The notes under the pieces: generated by a model | Seen by the model: the letters and a program-made list of their open reading frames with translations, nothing else | What the model was told of the DNA's origin: nothing | The model's database searches: none | Program-made: the position numbers and the translations under genes | Part shown: one piece after another, positions 18,913-35,174 of the stretch | How positions within the stretch are numbered: the stretch's first letter is position 1 | How the letters are laid out: each line of letters starts with the position of its first letter | NCBI GenBank assembly: GCA_013331635.1 | Contig: DUFZ01000009.1 | Coordinates: 1-35,174 of the forward strand | Direction: 5' to 3' | DNA from: Candidatus Woesearchaeota archaeon | GTDB taxonomy: Archaea > Nanobdellota > Nanobdellia > Woesearchaeales > GW2011-AR9 | DNA: 35,174 bases

Positions 18913-18989
18913 TTTTAGAAGCTTAATTCTTCATTGAAATATCTTCATCAATTCGTTGCCTTAAGTGATAATACTTCCAGTTCTTTAAA

Positions 18990-20351: not shown

Positions 20352-21412
20352 TTTTCTTCTATCTCTGCATATACCCCCTGGTATCTTTTTAAAAATATTT
20401 CTTGAGAGAAATATTTCTCAGCAGTCTTTCGGCAATTTTTCTGGTACTGGGCATAATTCTTTCTAAGTTCTTGAATGGCTCTTGATAGATCTACGACCGT
20501 TGGTTCAAACACGACACCGCATTTTTCTCTGTTGACGATAGCAGCTATTTCCGTTTTTGAAGATACCAGGACCGGCTTTCCGGAAGCCAGACTTTCAATA
20601 GCGGAATTAGGGATGAGCTTAAGGTAATCATCAAATGCTGTATAGGGGATGATAGTGCAATGAGCTTTGGCATAAGTTTGGTTTATGTCGTTGACGATGG
20701 TGTTGGTTAGGTGAAGATTAGAGATATTTCTTTGTTCTTTTATCTCTTTAATTTTTTCGTATGCTCCCAATCTCCAGAGTAATTGAAATTTAATGTTTTT
20801 TTCCTGTTCTGCAGTGTTTACTAAGAGATTTATCCCCCTCTTCTCAAAATCTTGTTCCCTGGTTGGACAACTGGCATATAAAATAGTAAAAGAACTATTA
20901 TGATTTGTTACTGGTAAATAGGAAAATTTTGTTAAATCTACTGGTGGGTAAATTATCTCTATTTTCTGTTCTGGAAGGCCCAATGCCAAAAGATCTCGTT
21001 TTTGTTTTTCCGATTCAACAATTATTCTTAAGAGTTGGTGAAGGTACTTCTGCTTTTTCTTGACTTTGGTAAAATTACAGGAAGCAGCCGCAGTGAGAAT
21101 AGTCTTTTGGAGATTTAATACCCCTAAATAAGGAAGGTCTCCTAAAGAAGTGTAAATGTGGTTAATATCACTTTTTTTGCTCAAGGCATAAGCGTAAGGA
21201 AAGGTAAGAGGATAAAAAGAAAAATGGTGGGAGAAAAAATTCTGATGAAGAGAGAAAGAAGTTAAGCCATCTAAATGCAAATTGAATATTTTTGTAGTAT
21301 GATCTTTAGAAAAGTGTTCTGCCAGTAAAGCTACCTCTTTAGAAATAGCTTCATACGCTGGCCTATATCGCTGTACATAATAAGTTATTTTTTTTGGCAT
21401 AGGACTATCCAT
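20348..21412 (-). CDS. GT4 family glycosyltransferase
   Basis: A soluble GT-B protein of 354 residues (350 if the in-frame ATG at 21400 is used). The C-terminal nucleotide-sugar-binding region shows IPNSAIESLASGKPVLVSS, and IYPPVDLTKF marks the middle of the fold as in group 1 (GT4) transferases. The EX7E motif is modified: the first Glu is replaced (IPNSAIE). It presumably adds one sugar to a lipid-linked glycan on the cytoplasmic face. It overlaps the methyltransferase gene upstream by 28 nt and the kinase gene downstream by 4 nt. Confidence 0.82.
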   Translation of the reverse strand: MDSPMPKKITYYVQRYRPAYEAISKEVALLAEHFSKDHTTKIFNLHLDGLTSFSLHQNFFSHHFSFYPLTFPYAYALSKKSDINHIYTSLGDLPYLGVLNLQKTILTAAASCNFTKVKKKQKYLHQLLRIIVESEKQKRDLLALGLPEQKIEIIYPPVDLTKFSYLPVTNHNSSFTILYASCPTREQDFEKRGINLLVNTAEQEKNIKFQLLWRLGAYEKIKEIKEQRNISNLHLTNTIVNDINQTYAKAHCTIIPYTAFDDYLKLIPNSAIESLASGKPVLVSSKTEIAAIVNREKCGVVFEPTVVDLSRAIQELRKNYAQYQKNCRKTAEKYFSQEIFLKRYQGVYAEIEEK

Positions 21413-22143
21413 TCATACGGTTGATCTGAGGGAAAGTGCTCTCCTTTTTTGATAAGACGTTGGGCAAAAGTATGCATTCCTAGAATTTTGAACGGCCGGG
21501 AGAGTACTGCCTGTATCCGAAAGTGTGAGAGCACCGGATAAAGTTTTATCACCTGAAATCCGTTTTCATTAAGTTCATTAATCAACTGTCGCTTTTGATA
21601 AAGATGGTCATACACAAAGTAACGCTTCTTCCCAAGAATTTTACGCAGCGGCAGCACCACTTCTTTATTCATCGCTTCAAAGACCAAATATCCTTTATCA
21701 TTTAGTGCCCGATGGGCTTGCTGGTAAATTTTCCTTCGTTGCGGCTCCTGAAAGTGAAGCAGAAAACGGAATGTAAAAATAAGGTCAAATTTTTGTTTCA
21801 ATTTAAGATTGCTGGAGAAAAGATCGGCGTGGAGGAAAGTCCACTGTTTATTTTTTTGCTTCATGCGCTGTCTTGCTATCTCAATCATTTTTTCACTAGC
21901 ATCAATACTTGTTCCTCCAAAAATCTGAAGTTCAGTAGTGAGACGGGCAGGTCCAGGAGCAAATTCTAGAACTTTCTGTGGTTTTAGTTGAGCAATAATA
22001 GCGTTAAGGAGTGAGACCTGTCGTTGATGTTCAACTTGATTGAGTGGATCATGGAAGCGACGTTTAACATATTGTTGAGCTACGTTCTCCTGCTGGTAGT
22101 ACTTCCTGACCTCGTGCGGGGTGAATATCGTTGGCATAGTCAT
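21385..22143 (-). CDS. Class I SAM-dependent methyltransferase
   Basis: A cytosolic protein of 252 residues with Rossmann methyltransferase motifs: motif I VLEFAPGPARLT, the acidic end of strand 2 (GTSIDASEKMIEIA), FLHADLF, and FDLIFTFRFLLHF. The glycine-rich loop EFAPGPA is a slight variant of ExGxG. It lies between GT4 genes and likely methylates a sugar of the growing glycan or a lipid carrier (inference). It shares an ATGA overlap with the upstream GT4 gene. Confidence 0.8.
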   Translation of the reverse strand: MTMPTIFTPHEVRKYYQQENVAQQYVKRRFHDPLNQVEHQRQVSLLNAIIAQLKPQKVLEFAPGPARLTTELQIFGGTSIDASEKMIEIARQRMKQKNKQWTFLHADLFSSNLKLKQKFDLIFTFRFLLHFQEPQRRKIYQQAHRALNDKGYLVFEAMNKEVVLPLRKILGKKRYFVYDHLYQKRQLINELNENGFQVIKLYPVLSHFRIQAVLSRPFKILGMHTFAQRLIKKGEHFPSDQPYEWIVLCQKK

Positions 22144-23348
22144 GTTTGATATAATTGATTTAATTTTTTCGCTATAATTTGCCGACGATAGGTACTTTTG
22201 TCTGGAATTCTCATTAGTGGTTGATGATCAAGTTGGCTGTTCAATTGCTGCTGCAGTGCTATGATGTTGCCGGGCGCAACCAGAAAACCACCATCAGCCA
22301 TCGTTTCTTTAATTCCCCCAATGTCCGATCCAATCACCATTTTTCCTGCCGCTTGCGCCTCAATGGCAATCCGGCCGAACGGCTCCGGCCAGAGCGATGG
22401 AAAGACCACCACGTCGGCCTGGGCATAGATTTCCGGAATTTCACGGTAAGGAACCGGAGCATGAATCATTGCATCCAGATGGTTTTGGTCAATGATTTGC
22501 TGCAGTTGTTCTTTCATGGCGCCTTCCCCATAAAGGTCGCAGCGGCAGTTGATGCCTTTTATCGCCTCGAGAAGAACCTGGGGCCCTTTTGATTCCATCA
22601 GCGATCCCAGGAATAAAATCCGCGGTTTGCCAGCATTATCCTTGCCCTTTTTTTGGGCCTTTTGGAATGGCTTCAAATCCAGAGCATTTGGAATAACGGT
22701 GCTGGCGTGACCTTGTTGAATCAGCAGATTTTTAACGTAGTCGCTTATCGCAATCAGCTGGCAGTGCTGGAGAGCTTGGTTTAGCTTTTGGTAATGGTTA
22801 TAGACAAATAAGAGAAAAAAGGGATTATATTTCAAATACCATTTATTTTTCATCTTGCCGATTTCTTTGGAATGGCTCTGGCAGGGTACAAATTGGCGGA
22901 GCGAACATACCACTTTGCATTCTTCCTTTCCTCGGTACCAGCGGTCTCCCTTCGGACAGAGTGTGGGATAACTTTCGATGGTGGCAAAGAGCGGAATTCC
23001 CAGACTTCTTAATTTTGGTGCAGCGATAATGCTGGTGCCAATAAAGTGAATAATATCCGGTTTGATTTCCAAGGTGATTTTTTTAGTTTCTCGTTGGATT
23101 GATTTCGGGAACTTGAGGCTCCTAATCAGATTATTCTTGAAAGTGGAAGGATTTTGTCCCGTTTTCAGCCGCCGGTATATTTTTACTTCTTTTATTTCTT
23201 CATAAGGCTTTAGTTCAGAAAAATAAGAGGTGAGTATGGAAATAGCATGTCCCTGCTCGGCTAAAGCAGTGGCAATGGTCTGAAGATTTATTTCCCCCCC
23301 ACCCATGACTTTTGGAGGGTAATACTCGCTAAGGAAGAGAATATTCAT
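22140..23348 (-). CDS. GT4 family glycosyltransferase with Cys-rich insert
   Basis: A 402-residue GT-B enzyme starting with LFLSEYYPPKVMGGGE, a standard GT4 opening. The donor-binding site is visible as EPFGRIAIEAQAAGK (EX7E type) after VVFPSLWPE. An insert around residues 125-155 holds four Cys (TLCP, EECKVVC, VPCQ), a pattern in some GT4 enzymes that may bind metal or form a structural site. Probably cytoplasmic and acting on a lipid-linked glycan. It has its own TATA box in the 56-nt gap before it. Confidence 0.88.
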   Translation of the reverse strand: MNILFLSEYYPPKVMGGGEINLQTIATALAEQGHAISILTSYFSELKPYEEIKEVKIYRRLKTGQNPSTFKNNLIRSLKFPKSIQRETKKITLEIKPDIIHFIGTSIIAAPKLRSLGIPLFATIESYPTLCPKGDRWYRGKEECKVVCSLRQFVPCQSHSKEIGKMKNKWYLKYNPFFLLFVYNHYQKLNQALQHCQLIAISDYVKNLLIQQGHASTVIPNALDLKPFQKAQKKGKDNAGKPRILFLGSLMESKGPQVLLEAIKGINCRCDLYGEGAMKEQLQQIIDQNHLDAMIHAPVPYREIPEIYAQADVVVFPSLWPEPFGRIAIEAQAAGKMVIGSDIGGIKETMADGGFLVAPGNIIALQQQLNSQLDHQPLMRIPDKSTYRRQIIAKKLNQLYQT

Positions 23349-23370
23349 AATATAAATGAGTAAAAATTGA

Positions 23371-23378
23371 TTTATAAT
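23371..23378 (-). promoter_or_regulatory. Internal TATA box of the glycosyltransferase operon
   Basis: On the minus strand attataaa, about 26 nt before the ATG at 23348, in the only sizeable gap of this gene string. Confidence 0.5.
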
Positions 23379-23404
23379 AGTTATGGTATTGGATTCAGAG
23401 GGCC

Positions 23405-24547
23405 TTATTTTTTGCCCGGCAGAAGCTGCTCATACACCTTCAAGTATTTCTCAATATTTTTTTTCCATTCAAATCTTGGCATTTCTTTCCATTGATATTG
23501 GCCTTGCGCTACTTTGATAGCCTTGTCTGCTAAATCGTCTGCGTTCTTGCTGTTGAATATCTGATGTTTACCACCAATAATTTCCGGCAAGGAGCCAGCA
23601 TTGCTGATGACAACTGGTTTATTCATGGCCATGGCTTCGACGGCGTTGTAGCCAAATCCCTCGGAAACGGAAGGGATGATGACGCAGTCAGCCAGGCTCA
23701 CATAGGTTCGTAACCCCGGATAAGGACAGGATTCCAGCACCTGGATATGATTTGGAAGATTGAGTTGGCGAATGAGTTGATGCAATTCCTTAGTTTTCTG
23801 GGGGTATTTTTCAGCAGAGCCCAGCATGAGCAGCAAGGTCGCCGAGGGATTTTTTTCTATGATTTTTGGAACGGCTTGCAGAAGATATTCAAATCCTTTG
23901 GATGCCCCGGGACGGCCCCAGGCCAGGTACACAAAACGATTGTTGAGATTTAATCTTTTTTTTAGCTGCGTTATTTCTGTTTGCTTGATTTTTTTTTGAT
24001 TCCAGAACTGGTAATCTAAGCCATTGTAAACGGTTTGCACGTTGTCTGGTTTTATTTTACGTTTAAGCAAGTCCGCCTTGGTGGCGTTAGAGACGCAGAT
24101 GTAGTGGTCAAAGGGCAGGAGATAAATCATCCGTTCCAGCAGGTCGTGGAGAGTGCTTTTTATTTTTCCAAAACCTGTAATTTGCGTCCATTTTCCAACC
24201 CACACTTCGTGGACCGTTAACACTACTGGCTTCCCGGTTAGTTTTCCGGCAATCCAGGCGGGGAAAGCGCCATTAAAGGTGGTAGTTTGAATGATGTCAT
24301 GCTGTTGAGCGAGCTGGATAGCTTTAGGAATCGCGAAGAAGCTGAAGATGTAGCGGGAGAAGAAAGAAGGAATGCGGTGAACCGGCACTTGGTTGATAGT
24401 TTCACTGCGTGCCGTTCCTTTCATACGATGAGTGAGGATAGTGCCTTCATGGCCTCGTTGTTGAAAGCCCTCCGCCAGGTTTTTGAAGAGAACTTCTGCC
24501 CCGCCATAGTGAGGAAGGTAGTTCTCGCAGATGAAAAGGATTTTCAT
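23405..24547 (-). CDS. GT4 family glycosyltransferase
   Basis: A 380-residue GT-B protein. It opens with ILFICENYLPHYGGAE and carries VYNGLDYQFW, LAWGRPGASKGFEYLL and, for donor binding, SEGFGYNAVEAMAMNKPVV (EX7E). A canonical cytoplasmic group 1 transferase. It overlaps the DUF2304 gene by 4 nt, so its translation is likely coupled. The transferred sugar is not readable from sequence. Confidence 0.9.
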   Translation of the reverse strand: MKILFICENYLPHYGGAEVLFKNLAEGFQQRGHEGTILTHRMKGTARSETINQVPVHRIPSFFSRYIFSFFAIPKAIQLAQQHDIIQTTTFNGAFPAWIAGKLTGKPVVLTVHEVWVGKWTQITGFGKIKSTLHDLLERMIYLLPFDHYICVSNATKADLLKRKIKPDNVQTVYNGLDYQFWNQKKIKQTEITQLKKRLNLNNRFVYLAWGRPGASKGFEYLLQAVPKIIEKNPSATLLLMLGSAEKYPQKTKELHQLIRQLNLPNHIQVLESCPYPGLRTYVSLADCVIIPSVSEGFGYNAVEAMAMNKPVVISNAGSLPEIIGGKHQIFNSKNADDLADKAIKVAQGQYQWKEMPRFEWKKNIEKYLKVYEQLLPGKK

Positions 24548-24900
24548 GGTTTAGGCTGGTGGGGGTGCTGGAGCGCTTCCTCACGGACATATTTTTCCAG
24601 CTTTTTCTCCATTTTCTTGACCGAGCTATAGTTTTGGAATCCCAGCATCAGGAGAACAAAAAATCCCAGGACGACAAAAAAATCTAAGCGACGGTAAAAA
24701 TGGAGAGGAGCGATGATCGGGTCCAATGCCGAAGGGATTAGCCCGACGATTAAGAGGAGCATCCAGCAGCTGACCCATCCCAGGAACTCGGTGCGATTGA
24801 GTTCCTTTCGTTTATATTTGACGAAGGTAAAATAAGCCATGACTACCCCAAAAATGACTCCCAGGAATTGGATCCAAAAAGTGGTGCTTAAGCTTACCAT
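24544..24900 (-). CDS. DUF2304 small membrane protein
   Basis: A protein of 118 residues with three hydrophobic helices (about 9-27, 43-60, 73-90) followed by a charged tail with coiled-coil-like KKMEKKLEKYV. The pattern fits DUF2304, which is commonly found beside GT2 polyprenol-phosphate glycosyltransferases and thought to be a membrane partner for them. Here it directly follows such a gene with a 7-nt overlap, so a membrane anchor for the soluble GT2 is a reasonable inference. Confidence 0.75.
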   Translation of the reverse strand: MVSLSTTFWIQFLGVIFGVVMAYFTFVKYKRKELNRTEFLGWVSCWMLLLIVGLIPSALDPIIAPLHFYRRLDFFVVLGFFVLLMLGFQNYSSVKKMEKKLEKYVREEALQHPHQPKP

Positions 24901-25544
24901 AATCTTCCCCCTATCATCTTAGCTACGATCAACACTCCATCCAGAACCGTCGTTCCTTTGTATTTGTCCGCATAAATGGTCTCAATAGGGACCTGGATGT
25001 GTTTCAGCTGCTTTTTTCCCGCTTTTATAATCATTTCTGTTTCAACGTAATAATTAGTTGCATCCCAGCGTATTTTTGGATATGTTTGGGCAGTAAAAGC
25101 CCGATAGCCGCACTGGCTGTCGCCAATTTTAATTCCATAAAAAAGCTGCAGGCTTTTGTTGATGAAAGTATTGCCCACTTTGAATACGAAGGGCATGGAC
25201 TGAGGAACCTGGCGGGTTCCAAAGGCGATATCATACTGATTCAGCGCGGTGAGGAAAGAGGGTATTTCTTTTGGGTCATGCTGGCCGTCTGCATCCATGA
25301 CGACGAGGCGCTGGGCGCCCTGCTGTATCGCATACTCACAGCCGGTTTTAAGCGCCGCTCCCTTGCCCAGGTTTACTTTGTGCTGAAGAACCAGAGCGCC
25401 TGCCTGCTGGGCTTCCTGGCAGGTTAAGTCCGAGGAACCATCATCAACGACGATGATGTTCGGCGTGTACTGTTTAGCCTGTTGGATTACTCGGGCAATA
25501 GTATTCTGTTCATGGTGTGCCGGGATGATAATAAAATCGTTCAT
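24894..25544 (-). CDS. GT2 polyprenol-phosphate glycosyltransferase (DPM1-like)
   Basis: A 216-residue GT-A enzyme: IIIPAHHEQNTI at the N-terminus, IVVDDGSSD, the metal-binding VMDADGQHDP, and the DPM1-type QCGYRAF near the end. It has no membrane helices of its own. The family makes polyprenyl-phosphate-hexose, the donor for GT39-type enzymes such as 1820-3754. The frame stays open to 25712, but those 56 residues are antisense to a surface-protein relic, so I start at the conserved Met at 25544. First gene of the glycan-assembly operon. Confidence 0.88.
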   Translation of the reverse strand: MNDFIIIPAHHEQNTIARVIQQAKQYTPNIIVVDDGSSDLTCQEAQQAGALVLQHKVNLGKGAALKTGCEYAIQQGAQRLVVMDADGQHDPKEIPSFLTALNQYDIAFGTRQVPQSMPFVFKVGNTFINKSLQLFYGIKIGDSQCGYRAFTAQTYPKIRWDATNYYVETEMIIKAGKKQLKHIQVPIETIYADKYKGTTVLDGVLIVAKMIGGRLW

Positions 25545-25583
25545 TTTAATGGTTTTTCTTAGAGTAAAACTGGGGAAGGTTGA

Positions 25584-25591
25584 TTTATAAA
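25584..25591 (-). promoter_or_regulatory. TATA box of the GT2-led operon
   Basis: The sequence tttataaa lies about 43 nt before the ATG at 25544, giving a short predicted leader of about 15-20 nt. Confidence 0.4.
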
Positions 25592-25611
25592 AATTATGGA
25601 AGAAGTGGCTT

Positions 25612-25764
25612 AGCAACAGCCAGCAGTGGGTTGATTGTAAAGAAGGAATAAATTCTCTTCCCCTACCGCAATCGGGTGAGAATGAAGGGGTACGGTATGA
25701 AGCTATTGCCAATCGGTTTTCGTGTTATCAAGAAGGAGATCATTATAGTTGGGCAAAAAAGTAA
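25612..25764 (+). pseudogene. Relic 1: fragment of a B-type surface protein
   Basis: Fifty codons and a stop, without a start codon, reading SNSQQWVDCKEG and, at the end, IANRFSCYQEGDHYSWAKK. This matches residues 402-450 of B3 (SNSQQWIDCKEG to SCYQEGDHYAW) almost residue for residue, including a 24-nt identical stretch (25723-25746 and 32860-32883). The fragment corresponds to the region just after the point where B1 ends. It fills the gap between the GT2 promoter and the DUF104/VapC pair. Confidence 0.85.
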
Positions 25765-25809: not shown

Positions 25810-26055
25810 ATGAGCATTGAAATAGAAGGAATTTGGAAAGATGGCAAGATCATCCCCTTAGATGAATTAGAGCTAGAGGAAGATACAAAAGTATTTATTA
25901 CTATTCCTGCAATCGTGGGTGAAAAAATAAGCTTACCCAAACTAGCAGGAGCATGGAAAGATTATAGGACTAAAGACGGAAAAAATCTTGAAGATTTAAA
26001 AAAAGAAATTTTTGAGAGCAGAAAAATTACCTTGAGGAGAGAACATCATCTATGA
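25810..26055 (+). CDS. DUF104/AF2212-like antitoxin
   Basis: A protein of 81 residues. The start IEIEGIWKDGKIIPLDELELEE is the small beta-rich module of the DUF104/AF2212-like antitoxin family (pattern: acidic-Gly-Lys-hydrophobic-Pro-Leu). The charged C-terminal half (from about 50) probably wraps around and blocks the toxin. It overlaps the VapC start by 4 nt (ATGA), the usual antitoxin-first order. Such antitoxins often repress their own promoter, but no operator is evident. Confidence 0.82.
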   Translation: MSIEIEGIWKDGKIIPLDELELEEDTKVFITIPAIVGEKISLPKLAGAWKDYRTKDGKNLEDLKKEIFESRKITLRREHHL

Positions 26056-26444
26056 CCTTCTGCTTAGATACGGATATCATCATTGATTACTTGAAAGATT
26101 CTGCTCTGGTTGTAAAGCGTGTACATTCTCAACTTGGAAAAATCTCTACCACCCCCATAACTGCTTCAGAATTATATTATGGGGCTTATCGTTCAAATCA
26201 GATTGAACGGAGAAGGAAAGAAGTAGAAGAGTTACTGTTATTGTTTGAGGTGTTGCCTTTTACGCCAGCGGTATATGAACTATTTGGGAAAATTAAAGCT
26301 GAACTGAAAGAGAAAGGAGAGCCGTTGGATAACTTTGACTTGCTTATTGCTAGTTTCTGTATAGCTCACCATCAAACTCTTGTTACTAACAATCTTAAAC
26401 ATTTCTCACGTATTCCAGGTCTACATGTAGAAAATTGGAAGTAG
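26052..26444 (+). CDS. vapC: VapC-type PIN-domain ribonuclease toxin
   Basis: A complete PIN protein of 130 residues. Acidic active-site residues are visible in LDTDIIIDYL near the N-terminus, in the SELYYG segment (Glu) around residue 39, and in LDNFDLLIASF (Asp) near 97; VTNNLKHFSRIPGL closes the fold. VapC toxins cleave tRNA or rRNA. The DUF104 antitoxin gene overlaps it by 4 nt. Immediately after its stop begins a broken surface-protein fragment. Confidence 0.88.
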   Translation: MTFCLDTDIIIDYLKDSALVVKRVHSQLGKISTTPITASELYYGAYRSNQIERRRKEVEELLLLFEVLPFTPAVYELFGKIKAELKEKGEPLDNFDLLIASFCIAHHQTLVTNNLKHFSRIPGLHVENWK

Positions 26445-26771
26445 TTATGGAGAGTATATATTTATCAATCTAGTAATCCTTCTTCTGTTGGGGTTGCTGG
26501 TGGGGATATTACCAAGATTGATTGGGGTGTTGATCAATCGGATGGAACCAAGAGCTTTGATGGAAGTAAGTGGTGCTGGATATCCGCTTTCAGCAATGCC
26601 AAATTCCACGTTTTCACCATCAAACAACCGGATAAAACGTACGATATCGTTTCCAACAGCCAGCAATGGGTTGAGTGTTCGTTTACTAATCAGAAAGAAA
26701 ACGCATCAAATGTGGCAACTTCTTATTTTTCTTTACAAGAATGTAGTGCTTCGTGGAACAAATCATCTTGA
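26445..26771 (+). pseudogene. Relic 2: frameshifted fragment of a B-type surface protein
   Basis: From 26493 on, one frame reads GGDITKIDWG, then SKWCWISAFSNAKFHVFT, then KQPDKTYDIVSNSQQWVEC, and stops at 26771 after ASWNKSS. It matches B1-B3 around their WCW motif and beyond. The first part, GEYIFIN (resembling GQYLCLN of B1/B2), lies in a different frame, so there is a frameshift near 26470. There is no start codon. It abuts the vapC stop, and its last 49 nt are antisense to the end of the DUF3368 gene. A 27-nt block (26619-26645) is identical to B1 29281-29307. Confidence 0.83.
26619..26645 (+). repeat. 27-nt identical block shared by relic 2 and B1
   Basis: Identical to 29281-29307 and matched with two differences at 32713-32739 in B3. 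It encodes IKQPDKTYD. In B1 the similarity to longer family members stops at the end of this block. Confidence 0.85.
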
Positions 26772-27217
26772 ATCCAAAATCCCGCTTCACGCAGTGCCAG
26801 CAGCTCCTTTCGTAGCGATGGTATTTTTCCTTCTCTTTTCGCTCGCATTAATATCCCCACCGTTCCCGTTACTGGAATTTTATAAATCCTCGCGATAGAA
26901 CGAGCTTCTTTTTCGTCAAGCAAGAGAAGATCGAGTTTCTTTTCCATCGCCAAGGCAATCGCTTCTGCTTCTCCTTCGTCCAGCTCTTGGTGTAGTAACT
27001 GAAGAAAGGGCGAGGGAGTTACTCTATTTATTACGAGGAACCCTTTTTCTTTTTCCTGATGGAAAAATTGAACTCCTTCTTTTTCAGTATCAGTAAGTTC
27101 TTTCCATACTGCTTCGGTAATGAAAATGTGCGGATAGAACTCTTGGAGTAAGTGGAAACGATTAATCGAGAATAAAGAAATAAGTGGGGAGGTATTACTT
27201 ACGACTTTTTCGGGCAT
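26723..27217 (-). CDS. DUF3368 PIN-like toxin
   Basis: A protein of 164 residues resembling the DUF3368 branch of PIN nucleases. It begins VVSNTSPLISLFSI (acid-free N-S-P-L start typical of this branch), with ELDEGEAEAIALA and LLLDEKEARSIA for the acidic centre and VTGTVGILMRAK near the end. It follows the UPF0175 gene with a 23-nt overlap, the standard arrangement of this pair. The final ~16 residues are antisense to relic 2, so its C-terminus may have been reshaped by the junction. Confidence 0.85.
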   Translation of the reverse strand: MPEKVVSNTSPLISLFSINRFHLLQEFYPHIFITEAVWKELTDTEKEGVQFFHQEKEKGFLVINRVTPSPFLQLLHQELDEGEAEAIALAMEKKLDLLLLDEKEARSIARIYKIPVTGTVGILMRAKREGKIPSLRKELLALREAGFWIQDDLFHEALHSCKEK

Positions 27218-27455
27218 ACACTAGGTCCTCCTGAAGTTCTTCGGTGGTATAGTGCCGGGATATTTTTCTTTTTTTAAGCTCACTTAAAAAATCCCAGGTA
27301 GAAAGACCAGCTAGTTTTCGCGCTTTTCCCAGCGAAAGAGCTTCTCGTTGGTAGAGGGAGAGAGCTAATTCTTTGTCCAGTTCCTGCATTTGTTCCTTTG
27401 GCGGAATTTTAAGCGCCTGTACTATATCTTCAGGAATCACCACGGTAAGTGTCAT
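27195..27455 (-). CDS. UPF0175 family antitoxin
   Basis: A protein of 86 residues: VVIPEDIVQALKIPP opens it, then LALSLYQREALSLGKARKLAGLSTWDFL, the helix-turn-helix-like core of UPF0175 (ALSLGKAAELAG pattern), and a basic tail YTTEELQEDL. UPF0175 proteins accompany DUF3368 toxins and likely bind DNA and toxin. The start ATG at 27455 lies about 27 nt from a TATA box, fitting a leaderless mRNA. Confidence 0.88.
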   Translation of the reverse strand: MTLTVVIPEDIVQALKIPPKEQMQELDKELALSLYQREALSLGKARKLAGLSTWDFLSELKKRKISRHYTTEELQEDLVYARKSRK

Positions 27456-27522: not shown

Positions 27523-27531
27523 TTTATAAAT
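27523..27531 (+). promoter_or_regulatory. TATA box of A1
   Basis: The sequence tttataaat is centred about 29 nt before the ATG at 27556. Confidence 0.6.
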
Positions 27532-27555
27532 AAGTAGTACTTATCAAGTAGTAAA

Positions 27556-27969
27556 ATGACACTTGCAACTTTACTTCAGCGCCTGACCCGCCCGGCAATC
27601 CTAGGACTGGCTCTGGCAGTTTCGCCGATATACGCTTGTGGCGGAGAGGAAAAAACTAATAATTATTATGGTGGTGTGAAAGGTGGAAGTGATTCTAATG
27701 AACAGCTTTGCAGAGATTCCTGTGAAGGGGTCGCCGGTTGTTGTAGGCGTGAAGGCGAAGATTTTTCAGATTATTGCGAAAATGGTGGGTCGTATTTTGA
27801 TCGTTTAAACTGTGTTGCAGATTGTAAAGGTTATATTCAAGAAGGTTCAGAAACAAAAGATAGTGTACAAGAAAGTATAAATTTATATAAATTTGGTTGT
27901 TGTTATATTGAAAGTATAAACAGTAATGGTCAGGGTGGGTTAAGATGTAAAGACAACGAACCCAAGTAA
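27556..27969 (+). CDS. A1: small Cys-rich secreted protein, lipoprotein-like
   Basis: A protein of 137 residues, family not recognised. An N-terminal signal-like segment (1-27, basic LLQRLTR then hydrophobic) ends in IYAC-GG with Cys28, like a lipobox. Then follow the acidic/Asn-Tyr-rich linker GGEEKTNNYYGG, shared with A2, and ten more Cys (52, 56, 62, 63, 74, 86, 90, 115, 116, 131), likely disulfide-bonded outside the cell. It has its own TATA box and precedes B1 by 81 nt. A role as partner or anchor of B1 is inferred only from the three repeated A-B pairs. Confidence 0.75.
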   Translation: MTLATLLQRLTRPAILGLALAVSPIYACGGEEKTNNYYGGVKGGSDSNEQLCRDSCEGVAGCCRREGEDFSDYCENGGSYFDRLNCVADCKGYIQEGSETKDSVQESINLYKFGCCYIESINSNGQGGLRCKDNEPK

Positions 27970-28050
27970 GTCATTTTTTGAAATAATCACTATTTTTCTA
28001 AACCTTACCAAAAGCTTAATAAGTTAACTTTATTTCTCTTTTATAAGTAA

Positions 28051-29322
28051 ATGAGTGGAAAAAAAGAGGTATTTGGATTAGTATTTATAATTATACTAGT
28101 CTTAAATAGCTTTCTCGTTTTTGCCGTTGGGGAACGTAGACTTAATGAGAATAAATATACTTCTATCAGCGGGCATTATTCTGAGGGAGGAAGTGATGAC
28201 GATTGCGACAATAAAGATGTTTACATCGATTGGAAATTTCAAGAAAGCCAGTCCATCGAAGTTCCTCATGAAGATGATTGTAGTCTAAATATTCCACGAT
28301 TTAGATCCCGTCCCTCGGAAGGTGGGTGCTGGTTTCTCGTTTATGAGCATGATGGAGAGTCTGATGACGATGGGGCGTGGTCAAGAGTTAGACCTGGACA
28401 GATTTTTGATCAGACCGCTTATAGAGAACCCTCTAATTTAGATTCGGGTTGGGATGAAAGTTGGTTCGAGGATTATTGTGATGAAAGTAATGATGCTTGG
28501 GACTGCGTTCTTGATTATAATTTTAAGTCCACTACTGCACTTATTTGCGTTAGTGATGACTATTGGCATGAATGTACTGGTACTGAAAGTAGCGAAGGGG
28601 TAGAAGGAGATATTGGAACCGTTGCGCAGCTTAATGATGAACTCTACGAGTGTATTTTAAATGAGAACGATTTTCCTATTTGGAAAAAAGTGGAAGGAAC
28701 AGACCTTGACGGAGATTTCTTAACAACAAGTGAAGGCGACTGCTCCGACAATCCCTCCACCGATCCTTCCTTCTGTTCCGACATAAAAAAGCCAGAAGAC
28801 TGTGGTTCTATCGAATCCCGTCAATGTGCCATCTGCATCAATCCCTCTGCACCTGAAATTTGCGGTGATGGAATTGACAATGATTGTAATGTTCAAACCT
28901 CAGATGACTGTAATAAAAACCAACCTGCCTGTGAACAAACTGCTCCAGATGTTCCGGGAGCGGAAGCTCAGCCTGTAGCAGAACCAGTACCAGCTGGTCA
29001 AACTCCACCTCTTCCATTCAATAATATTTATGGTCAAGCCTTTTCTTGGATTGATACTGCCGATGGGGGGAAATGCTGTGGATTTCAAGGAATGGATGAT
29101 TTAGGTAAACATATTGAAGCTAAAGATGGCTCCGGCCAATATCTCTGCCTGAATAAACAGCTAACTGGATATGAAAAGGCTACTCCAGATGCTATACCCC
29201 CAGGATGGGATAATGAAAAATGTACAGGAGATTGGTGCTGGATTTCTGCTTCAAGTAATGCTCAGTTCAACATTTTTACTATCAAACAACCGGATAAAAC
29301 GTACGATCTCACCCCTAAATAA
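28051..29322 (+). CDS. B1: secreted acidic Cys-rich protein with MopE-like motif, short form
   Basis: A protein of 423 residues with a signal peptide (about 1-25). Order of parts: a very acidic N-terminal region; the ICVSDDYWHEC motif (165-175); a metal-binding-type stretch DLDGDF at 218-223 followed by DCSDNPS; EICGDGIDNDC (269-279), the MopE-type putative Cu/Ca-binding signature; a Pro/Ala/Gln-rich linker; then FSWIDTADGGKCCG and DWCWISA (394-400). It ends just after KQPDKTYD (412-419), exactly where B3 continues for over 800 residues, so it looks C-terminally truncated. DNA identity with B3 is high from about 28800 on, low before. Confidence 0.85.
   Translation: MSGKKEVFGLVFIIILVLNSFLVFAVGERRLNENKYTSISGHYSEGGSDDDCDNKDVYIDWKFQESQSIEVPHEDDCSLNIPRFRSRPSEGGCWFLVYEHDGESDDDGAWSRVRPGQIFDQTAYREPSNLDSGWDESWFEDYCDESNDAWDCVLDYNFKSTTALICVSDDYWHECTGTESSEGVEGDIGTVAQLNDELYECILNENDFPIWKKVEGTDLDGDFLTTSEGDCSDNPSTDPSFCSDIKKPEDCGSIESRQCAICINPSAPEICGDGIDNDCNVQTSDDCNKNQPACEQTAPDVPGAEAQPVAEPVPAGQTPPLPFNNIYGQAFSWIDTADGGKCCGFQGMDDLGKHIEAKDGSGQYLCLNKQLTGYEKATPDAIPPGWDNEKCTGDWCWISASSNAQFNIFTIKQPDKTYDLTPK
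28819..28845 (+). repeat. 27-nt identical block shared by B1 and B3
   Basis: Identical to 32242-32268, encoding RQCAICINP just before the EICGDG motif. It marks recent duplication or gene conversion within an otherwise diverged family. Confidence 0.85.
29281..29307 (+). repeat. 27-nt block at the B1 truncation point, shared with relic 2
   Basis: Identical to 26619-26645. Five codons after it B1 stops, while relic 2 and B3 go on with SNSQQW. Confidence 0.85.
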
Positions 29323-29340
29323 GTACTTTTTAAGCAAAGG

Positions 29341-29348
29341 TTTAAATA
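29341..29348 (+). promoter_or_regulatory. TATA box of A2
   Basis: The sequence tttaaata is centred about 29 nt before the ATG at 29373, in the 50-nt gap after B1. Confidence 0.55.
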
Positions 29349-29372
29349 TTAGTATCACTTTTTAGTGTCAAA

Positions 29373-29780
29373 ATGAGTCTCACAAAACTTATTCGCACTG
29401 CAATTGTAGGAGCAGGAATTTCTCTAAGTTCTTACTATGCCCTAAATTGTGGTGGAGAAGAGACGACTAATAATTATTATGGTGGTTCTGAAGAAGGGAA
29501 GCAAAATTCTTATGTGGATGAGAATGGGAATTATAGTTGTGAAAGTGGAGTGAGAATGACACAAGAGCTATGTCTTGATTTGGTTGATGAAACTATGAAA
29601 AGACAGATGCTCAAGCCCAAAACTATGGAAGAATGTTTAGAAATTGAAACAGGTGAAGAAGAACCAAAGCCAGGACGAACTTTGAATGGATTGTTTGGTT
29701 GTATATATAATGTTTGTGCTAGTCAACTTGAATCTGTTACTGAAAATTTGCGTAAATGTGAGGCAGAATATTCTCCCTAG
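29373..29780 (+). CDS. A2: small Cys-containing secreted protein, lipoprotein-like
   Basis: A protein of 135 residues, paralogue of A1: similar signal segment (SLTKLIRTAIVGAG), Cys26 in ALNC-GGEE, and the shared linker TTNNYYGG. The rest is more diverged and has six Cys (56, 67, 88, 110, 115, 129). The mature part is acidic and probably lies outside the membrane. It is followed by B2 after 81 nt, the same spacing as A1-B1. Function unknown. Confidence 0.75.
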   Translation: MSLTKLIRTAIVGAGISLSSYYALNCGGEETTNNYYGGSEEGKQNSYVDENGNYSCESGVRMTQELCLDLVDETMKRQMLKPKTMEECLEIETGEEEPKPGRTLNGLFGCIYNVCASQLESVTENLRKCEAEYSP

Positions 29781-29826
29781 AGAAAGCTTAAAAAGTTCTT
29801 TCCTTGATAATAAATTGTTCGGTAGG

Positions 29827-29836
29827 TTTATAAATA
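29827..29836 (+). promoter_or_regulatory. TATA box of B2
   Basis: The sequence tttataaata is centred about 31 nt before the ATG at 29862, so B2 has its own promoter apart from A2. Confidence 0.6.
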
Positions 29837-29861
29837 TAGACTAATTCTTTCTATCTATTTT

Positions 29862-31052
29862 ATGGGACAAAAAAGGGGCATTTGTGTATTAGTACTAGTT
29901 CTATTAGCAGTCTTAATCCCATATAATTCTTTTGCAGAAGAAAGAGATATTTTTACAAAATATACTCATGTTATGAGTGACGTAGGGGAAGCGGAGGGGT
30001 GTGGTGATGATTCTGATCATTGGTCTACTATGGAAAAAGTGGACTGTAAGGACACTGATACTTCATTTGACTATGATGGTTACTGTGGGAGTGATTGCGA
30101 TGAAGATGGGTGTTTCTTTAGTTTTCCCCCAAGTCAGGGGTGTGCTTATATTATAACAGAAGATGACCATTTTGGGGATGATGATGATGGGGCTGCTGAA
30201 ATTAAGCCCGGAGAGATTATATCAGTAGAAGGAAATAAACTTCAAGTTGCCAGTTATCGGGATGGTGAAGATAACGAAAATGATTGGGATGATGGTTTCA
30301 AAGACTGTGGTACTAAATGGAAATCAGGAAATACCAGAGAGCTTCTCTGTGGTGATAATTTTTATTGGTATGAATGTGATGAACAGAGAAAAGGAAAAAT
30401 TATCGAATTTGCTCCAGAAGGAGAGGCGCTGGCTGAAAGATTCATTTGTGTTGAGTCAGAAGGGAAATATAAATGGGGTAAATTGGGAGAACTTGGTGAA
30501 AATTTAGATAAAGATTTTGATGGGGTTCCAGATTCATTTGATTGTGCCCCAGATAATCTTAATGTCCATCCCTCTTTTGCTTGTCCTGAGGTAAAAGATC
30601 CCGAAACTGGAGAGGGGGTATTAGATTGTAATGCACTGGGTGCAGTACCAGTAGCCGTGGAAATTTGCGGAGATGGTATCGACAATGATTGTAGTGATAC
30701 TCCTGCCGGAGATATAGAAATTAGGCGTGGAGATGAAGTGCATCAAGCGGGTGATATCACTATTAATGATGATTGTGATCTTCCATCCTATAAAAGTGCT
30801 TGCCAGAAACAGTATAATTGGATCGAGGGAGAGGGAAACAATTGTTGCGGTGATGATATCACCGATCTAGGTACAACTATTACTGCCGATTCCGGACAAT
30901 ATCTCTGTTTAAATTCCCAACAAACCCATGTCGCTGACGGTGATATTAAGTCAATTGAATGGGGCGCAGAGATCAATTCAGAAACAAAAGAAACTACCTG
31001 TAGCAATAGTGAGTGGTGCTGGATTTCTGCTTTGTATGATTTTCAAGCGTAA
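29862..31052 (+). CDS. B2: secreted acidic Cys-rich protein with MopE-like motif, shortest form
   Basis: A protein of 396 residues with a signal peptide (about 1-25, ending NSFA). Parts in order: an Asp-rich Cys-rich region (GCGDDSD, DYDGYCGSDCDEDG); LLCGDNFYWYEC (161-172), matching the same motif in B1 and B3; the acidic LDKDFDG and DCAPDN; EICGDGIDNDC (267-277); NNCCGDDITDLG; GQYLCLN; and EWCWISA (384-390). It ends six residues after WCWISA, even earlier than B1. This is the most diverged of the three. High Asp/Glu content suggests an adapted extracellular, cation-binding protein. Confidence 0.85.
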   Translation: MGQKRGICVLVLVLLAVLIPYNSFAEERDIFTKYTHVMSDVGEAEGCGDDSDHWSTMEKVDCKDTDTSFDYDGYCGSDCDEDGCFFSFPPSQGCAYIITEDDHFGDDDDGAAEIKPGEIISVEGNKLQVASYRDGEDNENDWDDGFKDCGTKWKSGNTRELLCGDNFYWYECDEQRKGKIIEFAPEGEALAERFICVESEGKYKWGKLGELGENLDKDFDGVPDSFDCAPDNLNVHPSFACPEVKDPETGEGVLDCNALGAVPVAVEICGDGIDNDCSDTPAGDIEIRRGDEVHQAGDITINDDCDLPSYKSACQKQYNWIEGEGNNCCGDDITDLGTTITADSGQYLCLNSQQTHVADGDIKSIEWGAEINSETKETTCSNSEWCWISALYDFQA

Positions 31053-31062
31053 TATTTAAATA
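31053..31062 (+). promoter_or_regulatory. TATA box of A3
   Basis: The sequence tatttaaata begins at the base after the B2 stop codon and is centred about 29 nt before the ATG at 31087. Confidence 0.55.
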
Positions 31063-31086
31063 GTAGTTCTTATTTAGTGGTAAATT

Positions 31087-31479
31087 ATGACCCTTGATAA
31101 TCTCATTCGGAGTTTTCGTATCGCTGTTTTAGGAGCTAGTTTAGCATTTGGTTCCTATGTCTGTGGAGGCGATGACTCCAGCAAAGCTTGTAAAACTGAC
31201 CTGGAATGTAAAGGTGACCGAGTGTGTATAGATGGATATTGCGAAGGAAATTCTGGTCAAGATATTAAGTATACCTGTGAGTCGGCGTGTAGAAACTTAG
31301 TTTATGAGTGTAAACCAGAAAGTCAAATGAAACAGTATGGAAGTCTTGAAGCAGGTTATTTGGCCTGTCTTCGTGATTGTACCGGAGCTGCAACTCTAGC
31401 AGGAGATGAGAATCCACCTTGGCCAATGAAAGTTTTAGAATGCTGGTCTGAAGGCTGTAATGGCGATTGGTGCCACTAA
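31087..31479 (+). CDS. A3: small Cys-rich secreted protein, lipoprotein-like
   Basis: A protein of 130 residues, third member of the A family. Signal segment TLDNLIRSFRIAVLGASL, then YVC-GGDD with Cys26. It lacks the TNNYYGG linker; instead residues 35-52 form a compact Cys module (CKTDLECKGDRVCIDGYC). Twelve further Cys in all suggest a disulfide-rich fold. It precedes B3 by 63 nt. Function unknown; the pairing with B proteins is the only context clue. Confidence 0.75.
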   Translation: MTLDNLIRSFRIAVLGASLAFGSYVCGGDDSSKACKTDLECKGDRVCIDGYCEGNSGQDIKYTCESACRNLVYECKPESQMKQYGSLEAGYLACLRDCTGAATLAGDENPPWPMKVLECWSEGCNGDWCH

Positions 31480-31506
31480 TTTTCCTCATTCTTATTATGA
31501 GAAAAG

Positions 31507-31516
31507 TATATAAAAA
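31507..31516 (+). promoter_or_regulatory. TATA box of B3
   Basis: The sequence tatataaaaa is centred about 31 nt before the ATG at 31543. Confidence 0.55.
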
Positions 31517-31542
31517 GAAGCAGTTTCATTAGCCTTAATAAA

Positions 31543-34500
31543 ATGATTAAAAAAAGAGGGATACTGGTCTTAATACTTTTAGTTCTATTTTTATTAGCTG
31601 AGGGGATCTCTGTTTTTGCATTAGATGTTAATAAAGAAAGATATCTTAGTGCTTACGTCTGTACTGACAATTCTGAGGTGGGCGATTGTGATAATATTGA
31701 TGGTGGTGGTATAACCTGGTACAAAATAGGAGAGACGTTCAAAAAGTGTGATGATACAAGATGCCAAGAGTCTTCGTTACCTCCTGAAAATGGTTGTTGG
31801 GTGAACGGAGTGGATGAAGCGTTTGGTAATGAATGCTCATGGGCTATCATTTCAAGAGGCGCAATTATTAATGCAGGCGGAGAAGTTGGAAACTGGTTGG
31901 ATCTTGGTTATCAGAATTATGATGACGATGGGGCTGATTCTTATTGTATTTTAGATAGTCACAATTTCCAAAATGGGAAAGGGGCAATGTTATGTACGGA
32001 TGATAATTTTTGGCAGGAATGTAATAAAGATGCTTTAGAATCGATTGCCTGGGTGAATAACTTTTTGTATAAATGTACTGAAAAGGAAAATGGGATAATT
32101 ACTTGGACAAAGCAAGATGGGGGAGTTGATGTTGATCACGACACCTATTCAACTCCCAACGACTGCAAAGACAACCCTTCCACCGACCTTTCCTTCTGTT
32201 CTGAAATAAAAACGAGGGAGGATTGTGGTTCTGTTGAATCTCGTCAATGTGCCATCTGCATCAATCCCAGCGCTCCTGAAATCTGTGGCGATGGAAAGGA
32301 TAACGACTGTAACCAGCAAACCTCCGATGATTGTAATAAAAATCAACCTGCCTGTGAACAAACTGCTTCGCCGGCTCCGCAAGCAGAAGCACAAGCCGCA
32401 CCAATACCCGAAGGTCAAACTCCACCTCCCCTCTTTAACAATATTTACGGACAGAAATTTTCTTGGATTGATACCGCCGATGGTGGGAAATGCTGTGGGT
32501 ACGGCGGAATTAACGATATTGGAACGCCGGCGGATGGTTCTGGTGGTTTTGCCGGGAATTATGTCTGCCTCAAAAACGCTCCAGCTATAGTGGGAGCGAC
32601 GAATATCAAAGTTGACTGGCCAGAAACTAAAGGTGATGGTTCTCCTGATCGCTGTGCAGGCGATTGGTGCTGGGTTCGTGCCGATGGCGCAGCCAAATTC
32701 CATATTTTTACTATCAAACAACCTGATAAAACGTATGATGTCGTGTCCAACAGCCAGCAGTGGATTGATTGTAAAGAAGGTTCACCAGCTACCTTACCGC
32801 AACCACTTTCCGCTGGAGACGAAGGAGTAAGTTATCTGGAAATTGCTAATCGCTTTTCCTGTTATCAAGAAGGAGATCATTATGCCTGGACAGAATGTTA
32901 CGGTGAAAATGAAGACGCAAAAAATGAAAATACTATCAAAGGAAGAGTCGCAGGTGAAGGGTTATATTCGTTATACCTAGTTGATAGAACTGAGAATCCT
33001 GAAGGTGAACTCTTTGGTGATAGGATTGAGATTAATACTCAAAAGGGGGGATATCAACAGTTTTATGGTGACCAAGGCTTTGATTTTGAGGGATATGATC
33101 AGCTAGAATTTATGGTAAAATTTGTAGGAGACAAAAATGGAGCCAATCTTGCTCGTCTGCCCAATCTTCCGGCTGACGTACAGCTTACTATCTATGGTCC
33201 ACTGGTGCGAAATGATCCGGGACAAGAAGAACCAATAAAATATTTTGAAGGAAAAGTGCTGGGAGATATACTCAATAGTCCTTCCTTTGATGGCTCTCAC
33301 TGGATGCTGGTGCAAGTACCTATTCCCAGTAACCTCAAAGATGTGCAACAAATTGTGATTGAAAGCGTTCCTTCTACCAATTTTATTGGCGTGAAGAATG
33401 TTAAAGTAAGTAAATCCAATGAGATCACTTCACCAGTTTGTTCCGGTAAGGATGATCGAGCGGCAAGTTCCTGGTTAACTAACATAGACCAAGGCGACAC
33501 AACTTTAAGTAAAATAACCGGTGAAGACTTATGTAAAGCTTTGTACGGTGACCATGCTTGGTTAGGCAATGACAACGAACTAGATTCTACTAAGCCTTCT
33601 GCCAACTGCTGTGGGAATGATAAACATGAATATTATGCTGGGCCAAGCAGAGAAAAATATGGATGCTGGAATTCTCAGCCCATAGAACAAGGACAGACGA
33701 CGATGAATGTGGTGTTTGAGGTGAAATATTCTCAAGAAGAAGTTATAATAAACTATCCTCTTGTTGACTTTGAATGGGGATTAACGATAACTCCGCAAGA
33801 GCAGATTGCTTCATATTATGTTATCTGTCGTGATGAGGGATACGACTTAGTTGATAAATGTGACCGGAAAAAGAATCCTTTTGTGAATGGTGATGAATAT
33901 TCTTGGGTGTTATTTGATGACCCCATTTGGATAAATAAATTTGATTTAAGATTTGAAGATTACCAAGAAGGTATTCTCACATTCTATCAGAATAATAGGA
34001 TAGTCAAAGAGCAAAGTTATACCACAGACAGTCATATTACTTTTGAACCTATTTTGGTTGATACTATTAAATTTAAACAAAATGGTGGTGGTCCTAATTT
34101 TAGATTTATTAGTGTTGGTCTTTCCACGGAGAATAATGCTAATAGAATTATTCGTCCTAATCAGGTTTCTGCGTTAGAGAGTCCAAAAATATTAGAAAAT
34201 GTAGTTGTTGATGCTGTACGTCTTCCTACCCATTTTGTCTATACTTATTCTTTGGTATATCAACATCCCGATATACAACTTTTCTTTCAATCAAACCAAC
34301 AAGAAATAACCTCTGCTGAGATACAAAGAGGAAAAGTTACTCTTTTTGCTGCTACTAATAAAGTAGAAGCGTCTTTCTCCGAACCACAACCAATCGAAAT
34401 TCCTTTACCCAAAACCTTCTCCTGCAACCAATCCTCCTGTCTCTTCCCTCTCCCCGGTCTCCCCCCCTACACTATCACTAACCCCCATCCGGAATTGTAT

Positions 34501-35174
34501 GAATTGTATTTTGTGGCAGGCTCAGAATCAAAAGATCAAACTTTGATTACCAATGATCCTGCTCAGAAATTTGAAGTGCCTGGCAATCTCCTGGCCACCA
34601 AAGTATCTCAGCAAGTCATCTATGTAAATACCGAAGAAAACGGAATTATTGACCAAAAGTTTTATGGATGTAATTCCGCCGATTTTGTGAATAATGGAGT
34701 TCCATCAAATTATTTCGAATCTCTTGGATACTGTCAATCTAAATCAAACCAATTCTGTTCACCCAGCGTGACCCACACTCCCGCAGATCAACCCAAAGAA
34801 CGCTTTACCACCATTAATAGCTGGAGTGATGAACCGTTAACCCAAGTTGGATATGAAGATATTAGCACCCAACTTCCTGAAAAAATTGAAGATTTACCAT
34901 CCCAATTGCAGCTGCGAGATATATCCATTGATGAAAAAGACCTCCCCCGCAATCATACCACCACCATCCTTCCGGCCCGAAATATGATTTCCAACGCCGA
35001 ATTTAAAATCAGTGGTCAAGAATTACCCCACTGGGAAATTATCAAAGATAATCTGTTGAAAGAAGATGAACGACCAGTACAGGATAATACCATCACTCTC
35101 GTAGCTGGCGAAGAACTTCGTTCTGAACGTATTGCCATCCCCTCAGCGAAAGAATTGTATTTTGAATCAGCGGG
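31543..35174 (+). CDS. B3: giant secreted Cys-rich surface protein with MopE-like motif (incomplete at right edge)
   Basis: I read the frame codon by codon from the ATG at 31543 and found no stop before the window ends: at least 1210 residues. Signal peptide about 1-26 (ends SVFA). The N-terminal module matches B1/B2: LCTDDNFWQEC (150-160), VDVDHD (195-200) with DCKDNPST, EICGDGKDNDC (246-256), FSWIDTADGGKCCG, DWCWVRA (374-379), KQPDKTYD (392-399). The tail unique to the long form starts with SNSQQW (402). Residues about 467-626 look like a jelly-roll carbohydrate-binding domain (YDQLEFMVKF, HWMLVQVPIP, IGVKNVKVS). A second Cys motif, ANCCGND then YGCW (687-709), follows. Probably a surface adhesin or sheath component; function unproven. 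Confidence 0.85.
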   Translation, partial: MIKKRGILVLILLVLFLLAEGISVFALDVNKERYLSAYVCTDNSEVGDCDNIDGGGITWYKIGETFKKCDDTRCQESSLPPENGCWVNGVDEAFGNECSWAIISRGAIINAGGEVGNWLDLGYQNYDDDGADSYCILDSHNFQNGKGAMLCTDDNFWQECNKDALESIAWVNNFLYKCTEKENGIITWTKQDGGVDVDHDTYSTPNDCKDNPSTDLSFCSEIKTREDCGSVESRQCAICINPSAPEICGDGKDNDCNQQTSDDCNKNQPACEQTASPAPQAEAQAAPIPEGQTPPPLFNNIYGQKFSWIDTADGGKCCGYGGINDIGTPADGSGGFAGNYVCLKNAPAIVGATNIKVDWPETKGDGSPDRCAGDWCWVRADGAAKFHIFTIKQPDKTYDVVSNSQQWIDCKEGSPATLPQPLSAGDEGVSYLEIANRFSCYQEGDHYAWTECYGENEDAKNENTIKGRVAGEGLYSLYLVDRTENPEGELFGDRIEINTQKGGYQQFYGDQGFDFEGYDQLEFMVKFVGDKNGANLARLPNLPADVQLTIYGPLVRNDPGQEEPIKYFEGKVLGDILNSPSFDGSHWMLVQVPIPSNLKDVQQIVIESVPSTNFIGVKNVKVSKSNEITSPVCSGKDDRAASSWLTNIDQGDTTLSKITGEDLCKALYGDHAWLGNDNELDSTKPSANCCGNDKHEYYAGPSREKYGCWNSQPIEQGQTTMNVVFEVKYSQEEVIINYPLVDFEWGLTITPQEQIASYYVICRDEGYDLVDKCDRKKNPFVNGDEYSWVLFDDPIWINKFDLRFEDYQEGILTFYQNNRIVKEQSYTTDSHITFEPILVDTIKFKQNGGGPNFRFISVGLSTENNANRIIRPNQVSALESPKILENVVVDAVRLPTHFVYTYSLVYQHPDIQLFFQSNQQEITSAEIQRGKVTLFAATNKVEASFSEPQPIEIPLPKTFSCNQSSCLFPLPGLPPYTITNPHPELYELYFVAGSESKDQTLITNDPAQKFEVPGNLLATKVSQQVIYVNTEENGIIDQKFYGCNSADFVNNGVPSNYFESLGYCQSKSNQFCSPSVTHTPADQPKERFTTINSWSDEPLTQVGYEDISTQLPEKIEDLPSQLQLRDISIDEKDLPRNHTTTILPARNMISNAEFKISGQELPHWEIIKDNLLKEDERPVQDNTITLVAGEELRSERIAIPSAKELYFESA
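32242..32268 (+). repeat. 27-nt identical block shared by B3 and B1
   Basis: Second copy of the block at 28819-28845, encoding RQCAICINP. Confidence 0.85.
32860..32883 (+). repeat. 24-nt identical block shared by B3 and relic 1
   Basis: Identical to 25723-25746, encoding part of CYQEGDHY. It ties relic 1 to the long-form tail. Confidence 0.85.

Follow-up and report, generated by a model that had tools for sequence, protein, structure and literature searches.

The 35,174-nucleotide contig of a Candidatus Woesearchaeota archaeon analysed here (the window; contig C90 of the 1.32-Mb genome G000) ends in an array of three gene pairs, each with a small lipoprotein-like gene (A) followed by a gene for a secreted, cysteine-rich protein (B). 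We read this array as the diversifying end of a Woesearchaeota surface-recognition locus in which A and the N-terminal part of B are exchanged as a unit, an interpretation whose chances we judge to be even. B, a giant secreted Cys-rich protein, combines a conserved scaffold with an N-terminal tip and a centre that both change fast, and A would be its fast-changing lipoprotein-like partner, encoded just 5′ of it. The mature part of A, together with the leader, the tip and often more of B, would be exchanged as one unit by homologous recombination, with the conserved signal-peptide region of A as its left border and the conserved B core as its right border. Displaced or duplicated units would stay upstream as A plus a truncated B and later decay, and toxin-antitoxin genes would settle among them, where they may stabilize the repeats. 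In the window, A1–B1, A2–B2 and two B remnants would be relics or spares and A3–B3 the active, expressed pair, with A presumably membrane-anchored outside the cell and in contact with its tip. Because a conserved giant surface scaffold, rapid amino-acid change in the tip, a lipoprotein partner that also changes and exchange as a unit are the typical look of recognition loci, we infer that the locus recognizes other cells or viruses; host attachment, virus escape and kin discrimination are indistinguishable from sequence.

The best evidence for an exchange unit with its borders in the A leader and the B core comes from the comparison of genome G044 (contig C23) with G020, where both junctions of a replacement are visible within one genus. 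For 1.1 kb the left flanks are 94–95% identical, and this identity stops where the A leader ends. The following 6 kb (the mature part of A, the N-terminal part of B, a small gene termed X, another A and a large share of the C-terminal part of B) cannot be aligned, and from B residue ~1512 onwards the sequences are again 95.7% identical over the final 185 nucleotides to the contig end. Since the replacement extends from the A leader to B residue ~1512 between flanks of ~95% identity, A and the N-terminal part of B move together. The border falls within one short gene, the A leader being 97% identical with a proportion of synonymous differences (pS) of 0.12, and the mature part 40% identical with a pS of 0.67. 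DNA similarity between G020 and G039 is also lost between the A leader and B residue ~324.

Within B itself the scaffold is conserved and two segments change fast: the tip at the N-terminus (approximately residues 30–330) and the centre. Between the B proteins of G020 and G039, which belong to the same genus, most of the scaffold is 80–97% identical, compared with 12–30% over residues 35–297 (in windows including gaps) and ~20% over residues 857–1000; identity changes sharply, with edges within ~40 residues. Two variants on contigs G011:C51 and G035:C95 gave ratios of nonsynonymous to synonymous substitution rates (dN/dS) of 1.08, 0.78 and 1.69 over residues 1–184, as against 0.01–0.38 in most other alignment windows. 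For the pair G023 and G040, dN/dS was 0.33–0.75 in the tip and ~0.1 elsewhere, with similar dS. Binning placed the two variant contigs in different genomes, which come from sister samples; their first and last 141 nucleotides are identical, both overlap the start of contig G011:C7 by exactly 141 nucleotides, and their record names carry k141. The pair resembles the branches of an assembly bubble, with alternative N-terminal parts on one C-terminal part. Exchange as the source of all tip change was ruled out, as tip dS is raised neither in G023/G040 nor in the two alternative variants; much of the change would therefore be substitution under relaxed or positive selection.

The B family is widespread: its C-terminal core was detected in 131 of the 191 genomes sampled across the Woesearchaeota order, including 45 of the 49 in the family to which the window belongs; 36 of these 49 were matched by a profile made from the B N-terminal parts found in the window. 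The genomes with B relatives are metagenome-assembled genomes (MAGs) named Candidatus Woesearchaeota or Nanoarchaeota. Complete relatives comprise ~1,440–1,830 residues, start with M-x-K-K-R-G and a hydrophobic stretch, and mostly end in FWPQLTGKLRV. Judged by this family, B1 and B2, which lack the C-terminal core, are N-terminal fragments ending about a quarter of the way in, and their status as complete proteins was ruled out by the family's length. B3 covers 253 of the 758 core positions before the contig end cuts it, and another core piece lies on G000:C35:2-439, a contig with an N gap. Many of this lineage's large secreted proteins (B and the product of the neighbouring gene D, discussed below) have an unusually constant M-x-K-K-R-G start, e.g. 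at window positions 28051, 29862 and 31543, which could mark a dedicated signal peptide type. The array comprises the following features:

25609-25758, plus strand: B remnant 1, start lost; corresponds to B3 residues 401-451 (tblastn of B3, 67-68% amino-acid identity); DNA repeat D5/D7.
25810-26444, plus strand: toxin-antitoxin module; AF2212-like antitoxin 25810-26055 (PF01954, E 2.6e-6) and PIN-domain toxin 26052-26444 (PF01850, E 7e-19).
26457-26735, plus strand: B remnant 2, start lost; corresponds to B3 residues 340-434 (tblastn, 41% amino-acid identity), with a 78-nucleotide DNA match to B1 (83%).
26723-27455, minus strand: second toxin-antitoxin-like module; DUF3368 protein 26723-27217 (PF11848, E 5e-15) and UPF0175 protein 27195-27455 (PF03683, E 6e-27).
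27523-27532, plus strand: TATA-like box of A1, 33 nucleotides 5′ of the ATG.
27556-27969, plus strand: A1, 137 residues, small, Cys-rich, lipoprotein-like; lipobox-like Cys at residue 28; A-type profile E 8e-28.
28051-29322, plus strand: B1, 423 residues; signal, tip and joint region; truncated at about residue 400 of the B family.
29373-29780, plus strand: A2, 135 residues; leader akin to that of A1, mature part different; TATA-like box ~32 nucleotides before the ATG.
29862-31052, plus strand: B2, 396 residues; truncated right behind the WCW motif; TATA-like box ~35 nucleotides before the ATG.
31087-31479, plus strand: A3, 130 residues, lipoprotein-like; CxxDxxCxGDRVCxxGxC module; TATA-like box ~32 nucleotides before the ATG.
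31543-35174, plus strand: B3, the sole long copy; 1,210 residues, open at the contig end; tip at about residues 30-238, joint region at about 240-470, then the giant-B scaffold.

An earlier, sequence-only reading had proposed six open reading frames (ORFs) forming three A–B pairs on one strand, and all six are in place on the plus strand, with A proteins of the predicted 137, 135 and 130 residues. Its Cys-Gly-Gly-acidic start of the mature A proteins likewise held, reading CGGEE in A1 and A2 and CGGDD in A3 behind a hydrophobic leader. Its description of the B genes as large fits only B3; the label is misleading for B1 and B2, because they stop at about residue 400. The motifs said to be shared by the B proteins were recovered in part: EICGDG and WCW occur in all three, while B2 (LLCGDNFYWYEC) and B3 (MLCTDDNFWQEC) carry LCxDxxWxEC almost exactly and B1 reads LICVSDDYWHEC at this place. 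B1 and B3, as well as B2 and B3, are clear homologs. The B remnants and the two toxin-antitoxin modules alternate upstream of A1, all belonging to one array, and the A and B genes are separated by gaps of only 34–81 nucleotides. Because TATA-like boxes lie 31–35 nucleotides before the start codon in five of the six A/B genes (against a background of 7% for 35-nucleotide windows; the exception is B1, whose box lies only 11 nucleotides before the start), most of these genes are probably transcribed separately, with short leaders. Further upstream, by-eye identification pointed to a surface-sugar gene cluster (window 3786-12711) with a DegT-like aminotransferase, dTDP-sugar type enzymes and two NeuB-like sialic/legionaminic acid synthases (10587-12711), and a run of glycosyltransferase-like genes on the minus strand (17322-25712) ends beside B remnant 1.

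Each of A1–A3 has a basic n-region, a hydrophobic stretch and a Cys at residues 26–28, the hallmarks of a lipoprotein-type leader, so that all three are predicted to be secreted and lipid-attached. The match between A1 and A2 is confined to the leader (E 5e-11), and A3 is weakly related (E 7e-5 and 2e-3). At least two unrelated types of mature part were observed: the small Cys-rich type of the window (also in G020, G039, G011 and G033) and a second with a GNSPL-x-Y-LWE-like start (G012, G016 and G025), besides odd mature parts of 360 residues in G017 and 284 residues in G009. As far as these sequences show, the A position is a slot filled by differing lipoproteins and not by one protein. On contig G011:C117 (738-3521), a small gene X (MQINIEKKHFWVL..) is followed by a tandem run of five genes for A-like lipoproteins whose leaders are nearly the same while their mature parts diverge, and an inverted A-like gene was seen between two B leaders in G019 (contig C9, 314-1063).

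Among the 33 checkable genomes of the family, a lipoprotein-like gene lies ≤300 nucleotides 5′ of B in 19, spanning many genera, and in one more (G013) it lies 786 nucleotides away, behind a nucleotidyltransferase gene; these counts were made by eye on ORF lists. As the order recurs in these 19 related genomes, it is not a chance arrangement. Whether A always precedes B, a check proposed in the sequence-only reading, can be affirmed for these genomes and not for the remaining 13. The expectation of that reading that A homologs occur at B loci rather than apart agrees with a profile built from 19 A proteins, for which 18 of the 19 matches at E ≤ 1e-5 were at B loci, the exception being at a contig end. 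Since many of these matches are training sequences, the profile shows absence from other families better than adjacency to B, and no match was found in 23 genomes of other families. Some lineages encode B as separate N- and C-terminal halves, each with its own A ahead in G024 and G044; the second fast-changing segment of the fused protein is located near this split point. Two such split loci, in which the small gene X and a further A separate the two ORFs, were noted at L070 (12630-15887) and L081 (4828-7309).

Several observations weigh against exchange of A and the B N-terminal part as a unit. The 13 family genomes without A argue that B works without it; in eight of them rpp30 is the immediate upstream neighbour of B. 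The clean replacement with two junctions comes from one genome pair only, and its right junction comprises just 185 nucleotides at a contig end. In most pairs the tips represent one diverged fold, and point diversification without swapping may explain much of their change. All genomes are MAGs, in which binning or strain mixing can mimic arrays; the three pairs of the window lie on one contig. An AlphaFold2 model of the B3 N-terminal part (480 residues; predicted local distance difference test score, pLDDT, 78) matched no PDB structure at E ≤ 0.001, nor did the tip. Finally, co-variation of A and tip was not significant (Spearman 0.12; partial Mantel 0.11 with B-core similarity removed, p 0.054), which leaves cognate pairing unproven. 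No single A–tip pair was clearly transferred between genera, and strict cognate pairing was rejected on these two grounds. The proposal of the sequence-only reading that every A serves one B of its own, taken as fixed pairing, is not supported, given the non-significant co-variation, the 13 genomes without A and the unrelated A mature types. Joint replacement of A and B and purifying selection on an orphan A speak for cognacy, and that A binds its cognate B is a fair conjecture that falls somewhat short of probable. A role of A as a lipid-anchored or immunity-like partner is possible, since orphan A genes persist after the decay of their B.

Similar arrays recur in other genomes. That of G020 consists of A, a short B with an in-frame TAA near its start and a fragment, followed over a 141-nucleotide contig overlap by A and a full B; G011 has rpp30, A, a B-leader remnant, a HEPN/MNT pair, A and another B-leader remnant; G039 has A, a B remnant, HEPN/MNT, A and B; and G036 has three A genes, AF2212/PIN and a short B. 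Toxin-antitoxin modules thus recur in these arrays, and the AF2212/PIN pair beside A and the short B of G036 resembles that of the window. One known role of such modules in other arrays is to stabilize repeats against deletion. G020 and G039 share an orphan A whose mature parts are 90% identical (proportion of nonsynonymous differences, pN, 0.06; pS 0.30), a sign of purifying selection. Its partner B is interrupted by a stop codon in G020 and has almost disappeared from G039. Orphan A genes outlive B partners that decay, as do orphan immunity genes.

This behavior raises the question of contact-dependent antagonism with reversed polarity, in which B would deliver or display a harmful N-terminal tip and A would be a surface lipoprotein conferring immunity to the cognate tip, as in TslA/TilA. 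The gene layout fits tilA–tslA (PMC10730906), A and B change jointly, the orphan A of G020/G039 is kept despite its broken B, and A genes outnumber B genes in several genomes: three to one short B in G036, and in G011 two with B-leader remnants only, plus the five on C117. Antagonism is nevertheless unlikely in view of the genomes with B alone, the weak A–tip co-variation and tips that share one diverged fold, in which neither a catalytic motif nor, by Pfam, NCBIfam and PADLOC, a toxin family was found; a machine for secretion or delivery was not identified either. A broader formulation is a polymorphic recognition or antagonism system of reversed polarity in DPANN archaea, with an exchangeable N-terminal tip, a cognate upstream lipoprotein marking or protecting self, orphan lipoproteins as an immunity store and toxin-antitoxin modules stabilizing the array, which we offer as a speculative proposal.

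Neutral decay, in which an A–B pair was duplicated in tandem and then truncated, A being an unrelated upstream lipoprotein and the order without functional meaning, would account for the frequent remnants and truncations, for the genomes without A and for the A leaders found on unrelated lipoproteins elsewhere (L089 and L091). It sits poorly with A ahead of B in 19 genomes of many genera and before the second half of split B, with the intact frames and TATA-like boxes of the window, and with purifying selection on the orphan A and on the joint region of B1 and B3 (79% identical amino acids, pN 0.14, pS 0.56), and we consider it doubtful. A store for antigenic or phase variation, in which truncated units are silent donor cassettes converting full-length B for virus escape or host change, is improbable: the orphan short B of G020 does combine a different tip with a joint region 82–97% identical to the resident B, and two alternative N-terminal parts do join one C-terminal part, but the short copies, in contrast to silent cassettes, keep their starts, signal peptides and mostly TATA-like boxes of their own; neither a recombinase nor a border of repeats was found, and no donor tract was shown to match an expressed tip.

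The recognition locus proposed here also has a recurrent setting. In several genomes of the family and in others sampled from other families (L136 and L138), rpp30 is usually followed by A or other small genes and then by B, C and D, an order that we regard as ancestral; the B core mostly adjoins gene C, with rpp30 ahead of B. Gene C encodes 400–900 residues with a K[GA]QITIF N-terminus, and gene D a large secreted protein. In G000, rpp30 (9295-9819, minus strand; a weak match, below Pfam's cut-off), C and D (2,064 residues) lie on another contig (C3, 866-9819), with only 190 nucleotides in place of B; B has thus moved to the locus in the window. At L085 (15202-18000), the D product has carboxypeptidase regulatory-like domains and a partial match, far below cut-off, to the Kustd1514 anammox S-layer model. 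In G007 (C12, 5890-6867), a 325-residue protein with, by eye, a caspase-like HG..DACSSG look is encoded directly 5′ of B in the place of A.

For neither A nor B did searches of Pfam, NCBIfam, PADLOC and PDB sequences give a match above threshold, and IMG/VR contigs contained no B relative that would indicate a viral origin. The Cu-binding_MopE model (PF11617) scored 24.1 bits for B1 and 25.1 bits for B3, below the curated cut-off of 27, with no other match among 22 aligned B proteins. An AlphaFold2 model of the B C-terminal core (760 residues, pLDDT 78) had no PDB match at E ≤ 0.001; weak matches to CBM22/RetS-like jelly rolls (E 0.014-0.02, with high match probability) amount to a weak carbohydrate-binding-like similarity. 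The sequence-only reading had not recognized the pair as a described system, and we likewise found no description of an A–B locus in the open-access literature and no family model covering either protein. How DPANN archaea recognize hosts, kin or viruses is largely unknown. An order-wide giant surface protein with a constant scaffold and genus-level tip change is a strong candidate for such an interface.

The A–B architecture resembles both TilA–TslA and orphan arrays of contact-dependent inhibition (CDI) and Rhs systems, and falls within the definition of neither. In TilA–TslA of Staphylococcus aureus, a small lipoprotein gene lies directly 5′ of a large secreted protein with an N-terminal active or variable part and a conserved C-terminal part, and extra upstream lipoprotein copies vary in number (PMC10730906). 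Gene order and a lipoprotein-like leader are shared with A–B, an immunity role of A being an analogy. B differs in its size of ~1,750 residues, its Cys-richness and archaeal origin, in having no lipase or other domain by Pfam, and in a tip without structural match in the PDB; A is dispensable in the 13 genomes that lack it. TilA–TslA has a type VII secretion system (T7SS); none was noted for A–B, for which T7SS partner proteins were not searched for. B1 and B3 also share an EICGDGxDNDC stretch with the putative metal-binding motif of MopE-like proteins (PF11617), as a single motif. Tandem T7SS immunity paralogs (esaG and tipC; PMC9484751) similarly recombine between conserved blocks around a variable middle, although these immunity genes recombine alone, whereas A and the N-terminal part of the giant protein move jointly. 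CDI/Rhs arrays (PMC3150448) likewise combine one full-length giant surface protein with displaced units of a variable part and a small partner, exchange modules between loci and often retain the partner longer than the effector, orphan CDI immunity genes being kept even where the effector is broken; comparable orphan modules stand beside a full-length gene in the window, G020, G011 and G039. Rather than unrelated toxins, the A–B tips represent a single diverged fold, with toxin activity not known, and the orphans retain start codons. In place of a C-terminal toxin with downstream immunity, A–B is the mirror image of CDI/Rhs, with the variable part N-terminal and both partner and orphans upstream. 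If A is indeed a cognate partner, the locus would correspond, in archaea and in reversed orientation, to the bacterial self/non-self modules.

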